A stretch of 64,000 nt of DNA from Chryseobacterium wanjuense. Lineage in GTDB: Bacteria; Bacteroidota; Bacteroidia; Flavobacteriales; Weeksellaceae. The position numbers and the translations under genes are program-made. The stretch covers positions 1,302,001 through 1,366,000 of the forward strand of contig NZ_FOIU01000001.1 of assembly GCF_900111495.1 (NCBI RefSeq), read 5' to 3'. The notes under the pieces were generated by a model. That model saw only the letters and a list, made by a program, of their open reading frames with translations, was not told where the DNA came from and made no database searches. This document shows, one piece after another, positions 1,460 to 45,390 of this stretch. Within the stretch, counting starts at the first letter, position 1. Every line of letters begins with the position of its first letter.

Positions 1460-2713
1460 GTGAAAGTTTCAAAATTAGCGGCGAACCTGATCGGTTCTGA
1501 AATTGTAAAAATTGGTAACGAAGTAAATGATTTAAAAGCAAAGGGAGCGGAAATTGCTAATCTTACGATTGGTGATTTGAATTCTAATATCTATCCGATT
1601 CCTGCAAAGTTGAAGGAAGAAATTCAGAAGGCTTATCAGAACAACCTGACAAATTATCCGCCTGCTAACGGACTTTTATCTTTAAGAAAAGAGGTTTCTA
1701 AAGACCTAAAAACCAGATGGAATCTTGATTATTCCCCGGAAGATATTTTAATCACGGCTGGTTCAAGACCTTTGATTTACGCGGTGTACAAAACGATCGT
1801 CGACGAAGGTGATAAAGTAGTTTATCCGATCCCGTCTTGGAACAACAACCATTATGCCTACCTTACTTCAGCTGATGCGGTAGAAGTGAAGACGACCCCT
1901 GAAAACAATTTCCTTCCGACTGCGGATGACTTAAGACCTCACTTGTCGGGAGCAGTTCTGGTAGCGCTTTGCTCGCCTTTGAACCCGACTGGGACGATGT
2001 TTACAAAAGAGCAGCTTTCTGAAATTTGTGAATTGATTCTAGAAGAAAATAAAAAAAGAAGCGAGAATGAAAAACCGTTGTACCTGATGTATGACCAAAT
2101 TTATTCAAACCTTACTTTTGGAGCAGAACACGTTGATCCTGTATCGCTTTTCCCTGAAATGAAGGAATATACAATTTATATCGATGGGATCTCAAAATGC
2201 CTTGCTGCGACGGGAGTACGTGTAGGTTGGGGATTTGGTCCGTCTCATATTTTAGACAAAATGAAAGCTCTTTTAACGCACGTTGGAGCTTGGGCGCCAA
2301 AACCGGAACAGGAAGCTACTGCAAAATATTATGAAAATCCGGAAGAAGTAAATGCTTTCGTAGAAGATTTCAAAGAAAAATTGGAAACGAGCTTAAAAGT
2401 TCTTCACAGCGGAATTCAGGATCTGAAAGGAAAAGGTCTTGCAGTTGACAGTATCGAACCGATGGGAGCGCTTTACCTGACAATCAAATTAGATTATATC
2501 GGAAAAACAAAACCGGACGGAACAGTGATCGAAAACTCTTCTGATTTGGTATTTTATTTAATCAATGAAGCCGGAGTTGCTTTGGTTCCTTTCTCAGCTT
2601 TTGGGGAAGAAAAGTCTGAGCCTTGGTTCAGAGCTTCTGTTGGTGGTTTAGCGATCGGTGAGATCACAGCCATGATGCCGAAATTAGAAACTGCTTTGAA
2701 TAATTTAAAATAA
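1460..2713 (+). CDS. Class I/II pyridoxal-phosphate-dependent aminotransferase
   Basis: Fold-type I aminotransferase of the aspartate aminotransferase superfamily, 417 residues. Cofactor and substrate motifs are present: NYPPANGLLSLR near residue 70, SPLNPTG in the middle (cofactor-ring Asn), YDQIYSNL, and the Schiff-base lysine in DGISKCLAATGVRVGWG. The start is GTG at 1460; an in-frame stop lies just upstream and no ATG is near. The amino donor is not evident; aspartate, aromatic or branched substrates are all possible. It follows the phosphosugar mutase by 95 bp with a repeat between, so co-transcription is possible but not shown. Confidence 0.9.
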   Translation: MKVSKLAANLIGSEIVKIGNEVNDLKAKGAEIANLTIGDLNSNIYPIPAKLKEEIQKAYQNNLTNYPPANGLLSLRKEVSKDLKTRWNLDYSPEDILITAGSRPLIYAVYKTIVDEGDKVVYPIPSWNNNHYAYLTSADAVEVKTTPENNFLPTADDLRPHLSGAVLVALCSPLNPTGTMFTKEQLSEICELILEENKKRSENEKPLYLMYDQIYSNLTFGAEHVDPVSLFPEMKEYTIYIDGISKCLAATGVRVGWGFGPSHILDKMKALLTHVGAWAPKPEQEATAKYYENPEEVNAFVEDFKEKLETSLKVLHSGIQDLKGKGLAVDSIEPMGALYLTIKLDYIGKTKPDGTVIENSSDLVFYLINEAGVALVPFSAFGEEKSEPWFRASVGGLAIGEITAMMPKLETALNNLK

Positions 2714-2721
2714 TACACTTA

Positions 2722-2752
2722 AGTTATAAGTTATTAATTATGAGTTATGAGT
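2722..2752 (+). repeat. Left 31-bp inverted repeat of the four-helix-bundle unit
   Basis: A 31-bp sequence that recurs as an exact reverse complement at 3095-3125. It contains the ATG (2747-2749) and second codon of the enclosed gene. A related single copy lies at 44792-44830. Confidence 0.85.
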
Positions 2753-3109
2753 GAAAGTATTGTTGGGAAAAAAACTTTTGAATTTGCAATACAGATTGTC
2801 AATTTTTATAAAAAGTTTAGTATTGAAAAGAAAGAATACATTTTATCCAAACAAATCTTACGCTCAGAAACTTCTGTTGGAGCTAATGTCAGAGAAGCTT
2901 TAAACGCTCAAAGTAAAATGGATTTTATTCACAAATTATCTATTTCTCAAAAAGAATGTGATGAAACAATTTATTGGCTTGAACTTTTATTCGCAACTGA
3001 ATATATTTCAAAAGAAGAATTTGAAAGTTTAAAAGGACAGGCACAAGAAATACTAAAAATTATCCGGAGTATAATAATAACCACAAAGAATAAGACTCAT
3101 AACTCATAA
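2747..3109 (+). CDS. Four-helix-bundle protein (23S rRNA intervening-sequence / S23-like family)
   Basis: A 120-residue protein of the four-helix-bundle family related to proteins encoded in 23S rRNA intervening sequences and to the Avd accessory protein of diversity-generating retroelements. Family landmarks are an early KTFEFA, the conserved LRSETSVGANVREA in the second helix, then KECDETIYWLELL, and a C-terminal helix with EILKIIRSI. The family's job is unknown; Avd binds nucleic acid. The gene is bracketed by perfect 31-bp inverted repeats that supply both its start codon and its last codons and stop, leaving no other DNA in the unit. It separates an aminotransferase from kdsB, and kdsB begins 10 bp past the right repeat. 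No ribosome-binding sequence is obvious. Confidence 0.85.
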   Translation: MSESIVGKKTFEFAIQIVNFYKKFSIEKKEYILSKQILRSETSVGANVREALNAQSKMDFIHKLSISQKECDETIYWLELLFATEYISKEEFESLKGQAQEILKIIRSIIITTKNKTHNS

Positions 3110-3125
3110 TTAATAACTTATAACT
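3095..3125 (-). repeat. Right 31-bp inverted repeat of the four-helix-bundle unit
   Basis: Exact reverse complement of 2722-2752. It encodes the last codons (Thr-His-Asn-Ser) and the TAA stop of the enclosed gene. The flanks beyond the two repeats show no convincing target-site duplication. Confidence 0.85.
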
Positions 3126-3134
3126 CTTTAACTT

Positions 3135-3863
3135 ATGAAAATAATCGCAGTTATTCCCGCACGCTACGAAGCAAGTCGTTTTCCTGCAAAGCTGATGCAG
3201 ATGTTGGGTGAGAAAACAGTGATCACGACGACCTACCAGAATGTTGTGGAAACAGGTTTATTCGATGAAGTTTTTGTGGCGACGGATTCCGAAATTATTT
3301 TTGATGAAATTGTAAAAAATGGCGGAAAAGCAGTTATGACCGGTCAGCATGAAACCGGAAGCGACAGAATTGCAGAAGCCGTACAAAATATTGATTGTGA
3401 TATAGTTATCAATGTTCAGGGTGACGAGCCTTTCCTTAAACTAGAACCTCTACAACAGTTAATTGAAGTTTTTCATAACGATGAAAATCAGGAAATTTCT
3501 TTAGCTTCATTAAAAATAAAACTGACTGAAAAAGAGGAAATTGAAAACCCAAACAACGTAAAAGTGATTACGGATAATAATGGTTTTGCCCTGTATTTCA
3601 GCCGTTCTGTGATTCCTTTTCATCGTGAGATTTCTTATGATGTAAGCTATTTTAAGCATATCGGTGTCTACGCTTTCAGAAAACATGCTTTGATTCAGTT
3701 TTCAAAACTGGAGATGAAACCTTTGGAAATTTCCGAAAAGATCGAATGCATCCGTTATCTGGAATATGGCATGAAAATCAAGATGATAGAAACCAATTTC
3801 ATCGGAGTAGGAATCGATACCCCGGAAGACCTGGAAAAAGCCAGAAAAATAATATCAGAATAA
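3135..3863 (+). CDS. kdsB: 3-deoxy-manno-octulosonate cytidylyltransferase
   Basis: Activates Kdo as CMP-Kdo for lipopolysaccharide inner-core synthesis in the cytoplasm. At 242 residues it has normal family length. Diagnostic motifs are the N-terminal nucleotide-binding [21 protein letters not shown], the [11 protein letters not shown] segment, NVQGDEPF (metal and CTP site) and the C-terminal [11 protein letters not shown]. The ATG at 3135 follows the repeat-bounded four-helix-bundle unit by 10 bp, so any promoter specific to kdsB would lie inside that unit; read-through from upstream is more likely. Its pathway partner kdsA lies at 26812-27621, not adjacent. Confidence 0.96.
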
Positions 3864-5209: not shown

Positions 5210-5283
5210 ATTAATGTAACAATGTAGCAATATAACAGTTTACCAATTGTTAGACTGTTATATTGCTACATTGTTACATTAAT
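5210..5283. repeat. 30-bp perfect inverted repeat, probable bidirectional terminator (family D)
   Basis: Positions 5210-5239 are the exact reverse complement of 5254-5283, with a 14-nt loop. The palindrome fills the whole space between two convergent stop codons (5206 and 5287). Related degenerate copies lie at 1372-1437 and 11200-11245. The strong stem between convergent genes suggests a terminator role, although there is no long U tract. Confidence 0.8.
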
Positions 5284-11181: not shown

Positions 11182-11199
11182 GGAAATAATGTACCAAAT

Positions 11200-11245
11200 T
11201 AATGTAACAATATAACAATGTAGCATTTTAGCAATACATAATATA
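11200..11245. repeat. Single arm of intergenic repeat family D
   Basis: TTAATGTAACAATATAACAA and GTAGCATTTTAGCAATA resemble one arm of the 5210-5283 palindrome, with small insertions. The opposite arm is absent. Confidence 0.5.
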
Positions 11246-44791: not shown

Positions 44792-44830
44792 ACTCATAAC
44801 TCATTAACTTATAATTTATAACTTATAACT
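44792..44830. repeat. Solo copy of the repeat that bounds the four-helix-bundle unit (family E)
   Basis: ACTCATAACTCATTAACTTA followed by TAATTTATAACTTATAACT repeats the right arm at 3095-3125 with a small insertion. It sits immediately downstream of the DUF4256 stop and has no partner arm or gene. Confidence 0.65.
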
Positions 44831-44832
44831 TT

Positions 44833-45390
44833 TTACACTTTAAGGCATCCCCGAAAACCTCTGGCGGCGTAATAAGAATCTGCGCCGTTGTGATAGGTGA
44901 AAATAGTATTATAGCGGCGGTCACAGAAAATGGCACCTCCCAATTCACGAATATTTGCGGGAGTTTTTACCCAACTTGAAGTTTTTAAATCAAATTTTCC
45001 CAGTTCCTGAAGCTGTCGGTATTGGTCTTCTGTCAACAATTCAATGCCCATTTCTGCGGCTTTGTCGATGACGTTACTTTCCGGTTTATTGGCTTTTCTC
45101 GCTTCCCAGGCCTGATAATCGTAGCAAAGGCTTCTTCGTTTCGGGCTTTCCGGTGAGCAGTCGAAGAAAATATATTCGTCTGTTTTTTTGTCATAGCCAA
45201 CTACATCGGGATCGCCTTCAGTTTCTTCCATTTCGTTTAATGACCAAAGTTTTTCGGGGCTTTTCTCCAGTTTTGCCTGAATTTTATCCCAGTTTAGCCC
45301 TTGATGACGGCTCATATTTTTCTCAAAACGTGTTTTCAGAACCTTCAAAAGCTCTTCGTTTTGTTCTGCAGTTAGTTTCTTTTTGCTCAT
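44833..45390 (-). CDS. DUF4256 domain-containing protein
   Basis: A 185-residue cytoplasmic protein of the DUF4256 family: LKTRFEKNMSRHQGLNWDKI, LWSLNEMEETEGDPDVVG, FFDCSPESPKRRSLCYDYQAWE and the C-terminal GAIFCDRRYNTIFTYHNGADSYYAARGFRG. The function is unknown. It is the last gene of an ArsR-led operon, 11 bp after the DoxX gene, and such genes co-occur in small-molecule or stress operons with SRPBCC proteins. Confidence 0.88.
   Translation of the reverse strand: MSKKKLTAEQNEELLKVLKTRFEKNMSRHQGLNWDKIQAKLEKSPEKLWSLNEMEETEGDPDVVGYDKKTDEYIFFDCSPESPKRRSLCYDYQAWEARKANKPESNVIDKAAEMGIELLTEDQYRQLQELGKFDLKTSSWVKTPANIRELGGAIFCDRRYNTIFTYHNGADSYYAARGFRGCLKV

Follow-up and report, generated by a model that had tools for sequence, protein, structure and literature searches.

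What kind of unit holds a single small gene so tightly between two inverted repeats that the gene starts inside one of them and ends inside the other? The question is raised by a locus of Chryseobacterium wanjuense that lies in a 64,000-nucleotide stretch of DNA, which was analysed as a whole and is referred to here as the window (contig NZ_FOIU01000001.1, positions 1,302,001 to 1,366,000). The unit is situated between a class I/II aminotransferase gene and kdsB (Table 1). Its two arms, 2722-2752 and 3095-3125, are perfect inverted repeats of 31 nt, as the original prediction held; they are 100% complementary, lie 342 nt apart and form the only perfect inverted pair among 25 of the 35 repeats listed for the window. 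The left arm contains the first two codons (ATG AGT) and the right arm codons 117-120 (T H N S) together with the TAA stop, again as predicted. When folded as RNA, the unit is closed by a 31-bp stem (-90 kcal/mol, z -5.0). A unique terminal repeat of 31 bp was considered and rejected, because the arm is itself a tandem heptamer array of a kind that is usual in the S23 family. Its five four-letter cores follow each other in the order AGTT, AGTT, AATT, AGTT and AGTG (ARTK type), with the spacers ATA, ATT, ATG and ATG in between, which results in a 7-nt spacing. In the right arm, four strict units are followed by AGTC as a degenerate fifth one. A third, solo arm had also been claimed, and it was recovered at about 44805-44835 (27-31 nt, 90-93% identical); this array has more units beyond a single 8-nt step.

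Table 1. Position of the S23 unit, its parts and the solo array within the window.
Feature	Position	Strand	Basis
Whole unit: S23 gene with inverted five-heptamer arms	2722..3125	+	Repeat search, ORF
Left arm, start codon inside	2722..2753	+	Five in-phase ARTK units, 7-nt spacing
S23 / 23S-IVP four-helix-bundle gene, subfamily A, 120 aa	2747..3109	+	ORF, PF05635, TIGR02436
Right arm, inverted array; last four codons and stop inside	3095..3125	-	Repeat search
Solo array without gene	44792..44830	-	Four strict in-phase units at 44806-44830

The claim that the gene fills the space between its arms exactly applies to the window unit and its closest relatives. The start lies inside the left array in the 10 closest relatives, too, and the stop lies inside the right array (ACTCATAA) in 10 of the 11 window-type genes examined, including 9 of the 10 closest relatives. 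The claim does not extend to the 77 loci of the family-wide set described below, in which the median gap is 19 nt from the array end to the start and 7 nt from the stop to the array. Exact filling is a clade feature, not a class-wide rule. The 4.67-Mb genome of the window harbours more arm-like places than chance would give: there are 82 with up to three mismatches versus 55 for the reversed pattern, and a stricter arm pattern is found at 26 sites versus 2 for the reversed form. The window also contains repeats of another type (GTAACAAT) at 5210-5283, 1366-1403 and 11198-11235, with units that by eye measure about 8 nt. The repeat at 5210-5283 is a palindrome (95% complementary), and similar gene-less palindromes are located upstream of the aminotransferase gene in several relatives. 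Perhaps these repeats correspond to the heptamer hairpins, with a period of 8 instead of 7.

The protein that is encoded between the arms matches PF05635 with 100 bits (E 1.1e-28, cut-off 33.8) and TIGR02436 with 110 against a cut-off of 24 (E 6.7e-32). Its AlphaFold model (pLDDT 87.6) shows four helices, in line with the four-helix-bundle gene that had been proposed, and superimposes on 2rld with a TM of 0.86-0.90 and on 2gsc with a TM of 0.76-0.80. These two entries are the S23 crystal structures found; 2rld is the best solved relative of the subfamily A profile, and 2gsc (XCC0516) that of a subfamily B protein. Five chains are deposited in each of them, and the title of a 2006 paper by Lin reportedly speaks of 'five four-helix bundles'. 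By analogy with these structures, we infer that the S23 protein would form a five-membered ring. Purifying selection acts on the protein, as seen from a median dN/dS of 0.07 for 55 pairs, a rough value with dS near saturation. Since S23 copies inside one genome are at most 60.6% identical (34 pairs sampled), there is no sign of recent copying.

To what extent the arrangement is shared by the family can be seen from loci chosen by the protein alone. From the best 80 of at least 590 matches in GTDB genomes (Bacteroidota, Clostridia, Treponema, Campylobacterota, Cloacimonadota, Lentisphaeria, Elusimicrobium, Acidobacteria and others), three loci with short flanks were dropped, which left 77. An inverted-repeat score of at least 12 was reached in 66 of these 77 subfamily-A loci, as opposed to 1 of 186 other ORFs located at these loci, 0 of 811 same-size placements chosen at random, and 9.2% of 3000 swapped flanks. 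An equal frequency of such repeats around unrelated genes, which the original prediction had named as contrary to it, was hence not observed in the loci examined. A scoring tandem array was present in 114 of the 154 S23 flanks (104 with period 7, 9 with period 8). The corresponding numbers are 38 of 372 for flanks of other ORFs, 23 of them with period 7, and 16 of 345 for random 120-mers. Within the genus, 22 of 35 loci attained a score of at least 15, as did 5 of the 84 ORFs next to them and, after flanks were swapped, 13.9% of 756 pairs, with minus-strand loci handled as plus, which barely affects the scores; the array sequence varies from locus to locus. Plasmid-borne copies, of which 12 were taken from 31 plasmid records matched (cyanobacteria, Treponema, Chloroflexota, Bernardetia), reached a score of at least 12 in 9 cases, and one from Nostoc has a perfect 39-bp repeat built of TAATTCG units (C052). 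Among the 11 loci of the main set under the cut-off, several have a left array while the right one is short or absent; four possess both arrays with no good ungapped match (L162, L163, L197, L203), and one has neither (L221). Heptamer arms flanking the gene are usual for the S23 family. The near absence of other ORFs between such arms speaks against the reading that the heptamer hairpins are an independent REP/MITE-like family, mobilised otherwise, in which S23 is mere cargo of the loop.

To determine the composition of the arms, 110 arrays were fitted without supervision with respect to phase and strand, which yielded the core N-A-[A/G]-T-[T/G]-V-A (ARTKVA). The polarity is as expected in 93 of the 110 subfamily-A arrays (left forward in 47 of 55, right backward in 46 of 55), and 15 of the 17 exceptions are arrays of AATT, which is identical on both strands. 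Measured without the motif, the arrays have a median length of 32 nt on the left as well as on the right, which equals five 4-nt cores plus four 3-nt spacers. On the left, the longest in-phase run comprises five units in 33 of 77 arms, four in 15 and six in 9; on the right, the respective numbers are 36 of 77, 16 and 4. Among arms with at least three units, the excess of five over a geometric expectation is significant on the left (p 3e-11) as well as on the right (p 3e-14). It is important to note that the ARTK motif was fitted and counted on the same 77 loci, with 3-of-4 core matches accepted within a run, while the array length is independent of the fit. Exactly five units in both arms are seen in 24 of 77 loci, and four to six in both arms in 47 of 77. 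Five is the mode of the unit number, not a law; some arrays are 11-14 units long (L097-L099), and both points count against the explanation that is preferred below.

A second subfamily has a different core. Of 118 Bacteroidota genomes, 90 had a PF05635 match, and 30 loci taken from the best matches are mostly devoid of ARTK units. ARTK as a universal core was therefore rejected, as subfamily B uses AG. Its proteins have forms of LTSQIRRSAVSIPSNIAEG where subfamily A has LSKQLLRSGTSVGANxREA. The subfamily B set was extended to 70 loci by 40 further matches (L312-L351), whose assignment rests on the motif in 34 cases and on similarity by eye in the remaining six. An inverted repeat was detected in 32 of the 70 loci versus 3 of 646 random placements and 1.2% of 2000 swapped flanks, a weaker signal than in subfamily A. 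An array is present in 53 of 140 flanks, as opposed to 9 of 188 random controls; the period is 7 in 36 cases and 8 in 13, and inverted polarity is observed in 35 of the 36 period-7 arrays. In-phase AG runs that comprise at least three units most often have five (14 left, 13 right), followed by four (11 left, 9 right); wrong-strand AG runs reach four in only 2 of 140 flanks. As subfamily-A loci carry ARTK and subfamily-B loci carry AG, the core follows the protein subfamily, which again argues against S23 as cargo of foreign hairpins.

The two arms of one element resemble each other more than they resemble those of other elements. In the 56 subfamily-A loci whose arms both have four or more units, the distance between left and right units is 0.147 within an element compared with 0.382 between elements (0 of 2000 permutations), and the distance between spacer letters is 0.216 versus 0.607. 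Protein distance tracks unit distance in the same loci (Mantel r 0.33, 0 of 2000 permutations; uncorrected for phylogeny), and shared ancestry can account for part of this signal. The unit varies between elements, agrees between the two arms of one element, and has a fixed polarity. Rapid arm-arm co-evolution was considered and rejected: in three groups of close relatives, the pairing scores of own arms (25.8, 14.0 and 18.5) and of swapped arms (25.8, 13.9 and 19.2) show no pairing loss. Since swapped arms pair as well as the native ones, there is no rapid compensation between arms. These results also bear on the idea that the arms matter solely by pairing, like a stem of an intervening sequence (IVS) that is cut by RNase III, in which case the protein would be blind to them and period 7 would stem from slippage. 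The perfect 31-bp stem of the window unit, the mostly sense placement of the elements (see below), and the IVS of Coxiella, with its 28-bp stem, RNase III processing and variable heptamer copy number (PMC4990558), are all compatible with it. Yet swaps among close relatives cost nothing, several S23 genes have a left array but a short right array or none, and fixed polarity, the subfamily-linked core, the mode of five and five-unit solo arms are left unexplained. We regard pairing as the sole role of the arms as decidedly unlikely.

The genomic context is suggestive of a life in transcripts. Both neighbours are co-directional in 51 of 66 subfamily-A loci, compared with 229 of 524 gene triples (p 1.6e-7, uncorrected for phylogeny, with random Bacteroidota stretches as the only baseline); 11 of the 77 loci were dropped, as a neighbour was out of reach. 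The neighbouring genes lie at median distances of 44.5 and 72.5 nt. Such placement favours an element living in transcripts, a reading weakened by the 12 annotated plasmid copies, in which both neighbours are co-directional in 7 cases, one in 2 and neither in 3. Some plasmid loci have conspicuous neighbours. On plasmids of Anabaena, Pseudanabaena and Nostoc (L103, L105, L108), S23 genes adjoin cas1 in CRISPR loci, in two of them between cas2 and cas1 on the opposite strand, and on plasmids of Chlorohelix and Gloeocapsa, thus in two phyla (L106, L107), S23 lies between DUF1156 and Swt1-family HEPN genes.

Copies lacking the gene, which the solo arm had led one to expect, do exist. The sample consisted of 35 stretches, 15 of which came from the 30 loci of the window's own genome (one per place with at most two mismatches; overlaps, the window unit and three loci with three mismatches were left out) and 20 from among the matches listed for genus genomes. 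They contain 46 gene-less arrays, of which 22 have five units, nine four, five six, five three, and five are longer. Three of the 35 stretches are without an array, and one locus is of unsure gene-less status, being about 0.5 kb away from an S23 gene (L303). The gene-less forms of the genus are short hairpins and solo arms composed of the same units. At least six sites of the stricter pattern are present in each of the 22 genomes that carry a window-type S23 (near full length in 19, a fragment in 3), versus 30 of 76 others (uncorrected for phylogeny), and the number of array sites differs between carriers and others with p 1.7e-5 in a rank test. Two of six genus genomes checked, with 5 and 14 sites, have arrays but no PF05635 match (G046, G093). 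In random 20-kb stretches, ARTK runs amount to 6 in 400 kb of S23-rich genomes versus 7 runs of the reversed motif, and to 4 in 360 kb of S23-free genomes versus 0. Owing to the 6 versus 7 runs, an abundance of trans-mobilised arrays in S23-rich genomes was rejected as a general rule. In one S23-free genome (G102), a gene-less inverted pair of the ARTK type is found beside GTCATGCTGAA repeats (L231:4995-5216).

At orthologous sites of the genus, the hairpin is often found without the gene, and also with a wholly different unit from species to species. Of 12 queA-rlmN loci from 98 genomes matched, 3 have an S23 unit (one of them internally deleted) and 9 a gene-less hairpin, 7 of which are five-plus-five. 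The groES-groEL junction (12 loci of 97 matched; L364-L375) contains an S23 unit in 6 cases and a gene-less palindrome in the other 6. Among 30 aminotransferase loci from 98 genomes, an S23 unit lies upstream in 6, broken in one of them (G019) and interrupted in another (G014), and downstream, intact, in 3; one genome has an upstream unit plus an internally deleted remnant downstream of the aminotransferase gene (G091). That all relatives hold the gene there without repeats, the other outcome named as contrary to the prediction, was not the case at the aminotransferase loci examined. In the proposed comparison with empty sites, S23-free junctions were found, but these are filled by other hairpins or AT-rich stretches. 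No target-site duplication or clean empty site was resolved at the aminotransferase, queA-rlmN and groES-groEL loci examined, and a tree of the window-type copies by site is poorly supported. The aminotransferase-kdsB junction (L114-L143) is variable in general and includes S23 units, hairpins and other inserts; about a dozen of the 30 loci share, by eye, a similar stretch of about 600 nt, and a GTCAYGCTGARC repeat occurs in 11 of the 30.

These observations bear on two further explanations. That S23 is cargo of independently mobilised hairpins agrees with the predominance of gene-less hairpins over S23 units at rlmN and their equal number at groE, with the 30 genomes that have at least six array sites in spite of lacking a window-type S23, with the two genomes that have arrays and no PF05635, and with the description of heptamer arrays in Xanthomonas, Nostoc, Beggiatoaceae and Geobacter in papers whose main texts do not mention S23. 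Since arrays are rare away from S23 in the genomes sampled and all 22 carriers have at least six matching sites, in addition to the scarcity of other ORFs between arms and the subfamily-linked core, we hold this explanation to be very unlikely. Alternatively, S23 proteins could be TRAP-like post-transcriptional regulators, and the hairpins non-mobile operators of neighbouring operon genes. Such a role would draw on the same evidence for recognition as our preferred explanation, and the position of hairpins between adjacent one-strand genes (groES-groEL, queA-rlmN, phosphohexomutase-aminotransferase-kdsB), the purifying selection on the protein and the lack of recent within-genome duplication among the S23 copies sampled are in line with it. 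However, the sites are occupied in a patchy way, the unit at one site changes completely between genus species, the S23 unit lies on either side of the aminotransferase gene depending on the species, one genome combines an intact with an internally deleted copy, and two genomes hold arrays and no S23 gene. A purely regulatory role is thus unlikely. Of the minimal mobile unit that had been proposed for the window, the self-contained gene with its arms stands, whereas its mobility was not borne out: arrays are not scattered above control in the S23-rich genomes sampled, the sampled S23 copies of one genome are at most 61% identical, and two genomes have arrays without PF05635.

The explanation that we prefer, and to which we assign a somewhat better than even chance, is that of a general class of small elements, in which an S23 ring reads the five-unit arms of its own element within a transcribed, IVS-like unit. 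Such an element would consist of one S23 gene and two inverted arms of about five 7-nt units. Its product would form a ring of five four-helix bundles that binds with one subunit per unit and one ring per arm. The core of the unit would be fixed by the subfamily (ARTK or AG), while the spacer letters would be private to the element or clade. As the element is mostly in sense orientation between operon genes, the arms would be transcribed and could pair to enclose the gene in a hairpin, an arrangement known from 23S rRNA intervening sequences. A ring on the 5' arm might then control translation from the element's own start codon, form an RNA-protein particle, or both, and by means of this particle the element would be tolerated and would, on rare occasions, spread. 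Five-plus-five hairpins and solo arms that lack the gene would have arisen by deletion or would offer additional binding sites. Against this explanation speak, besides the variable unit number, the weaker inverted repeats of subfamily B, the arm swaps among close relatives that cost nothing, the arrays in two genomes with no PF05635 match, the lack of scatter above control in S23-rich genomes, the orientation of the plasmid copies and the failure to resolve a target-site duplication. The association of gene and arrays, their polarity, the core by subfamily and the five-unit mode are solid. Judged from sequence, the unit's protein very probably recognises its own ends, as had been suggested at the outset, and recognition of the arm by a pentamer is likely. 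The central step, that one ring would read one arm, is suggested by five units per arm and five chains per structure; binding, its 5:5 stoichiometry and RNA as the ligand are likewise what we infer. Mobility and action at the RNA level are plausible. A bolder version would be a bacteria-wide selfish element whose pentameric ring reads its own five heptamers and which hops via an RNA-protein particle, perhaps by borrowing a reverse transcriptase in the manner of Avd, so that the 23S IVS and much of the heptamer repetition in genomes would be special cases or debris. This is conceivable, but we consider it doubtful.

If the preferred explanation is true, two old puzzles are joined, the function of the S23/IVS protein and that of tandem heptamers. 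A natural code that pairs protein subfamilies with short motifs would be possible, the link of gene and array would provide a rule for finding such elements anywhere, and the match of a five-fold ring with five 7-nt units would offer a testable account of widespread seven-letter repeats.

Elements related in form have been described before. S23 ORFs within 23S rRNA intervening sequences are known, for example, from Coxiella, where tandem heptamers (GACAGAT) precede the S23 start, a 28-bp stem is processed by RNase III, and the ORF was judged expendable (PMC4990558). The window unit resembles this IVS in its protein family, in an ORF located in the loop of complementary ends and in a size of about 430 nt; the Coxiella element has two or three heptamers in tandem and a further, degenerate one, and in our reading GACAGAT holds AG at 7-nt steps. 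Unlike a 23S IVS, the window unit is located outside the 23S rRNA gene, and no Rfam match was obtained within window positions 2500-3300. Compared with the Coxiella IVS as described in that paper, inverted arms of about five units on both sides, gene-less copies and a protein under purifying selection are further differences. Heptamer arrays, too, have been reported: 70 and 75 convergent pairs in Xanthomonas, and others in Nostoc (PMC4692102), arrays of TAACTGA in Beggiatoaceae, cyanobacteria and Bacteroidetes (PMC4679880), and one class of the Geobacter 'global regulator sites' with 'five tandem heptanucleotide repeats', in a set ascribed to IHF/HU (PMC2700814). The heptamer of this Geobacter class 3 is MTYCTGA, the reverse complement of which, derived here as TCAGRAK, has an AG core. 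These repeats are similar to the S23 arms in being 7-nt tandem arrays and, in part, inverted pairs, and the SPADE survey found 'no clear clue' to the 'prime number periodicity' of tandem heptamers (PMC6344855). 'S23' does not occur as a term in the main texts of PMC6344855, PMC2700814, PMC4692102 and PMC4679880, and no link of non-rRNA S23 genes to heptamer arrays was found in the literature searched, which comprised main texts and few subscription papers.

The combination of gene-bearing and gene-less forms invites comparison with mobile repeats. In REPIN/RAYT systems and MITEs, short palindromic gene-less copies exist alongside a gene-bearing form with the same ends. Unlike REPIN/RAYT, however, the S23 unit contains PF05635 as its only protein family and no transposase, and its arms are heptamer arrays; unlike both REPIN/RAYT and MITEs, no recent copy burst is visible among the S23 copies sampled. 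PF05635 has been noted as Avd-like (PMC10053308), and a Foldseek comparison of the predicted window protein with the Avd of diversity-generating retroelements (4dwl, 8ub7) gave a similar four-helix fold with weak E-values (0.1-0.15). A parallel for the proposed recognition is TRAP, 11 subunits of which bind 11 (G/U)AG repeats (PMC4027176). As proposed here, the S23 protein would likewise be a ring with one short repeat per subunit, in keeping with the mode of five in subfamilies A and B and in gene-less arrays. The TRAP fold differs from the S23 fold, and so do the number of subunits, the 7-nt step and the two inverted arrays that flank the protein's own gene. The window unit is thus neither an IVS as defined nor a REPIN/RAYT element, and may work like an IVS with TRAP-like recognition. 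The 23S IVS would then be a special case of the S23-array class, which would place this class, with its proposed mechanism, outside the known kinds.
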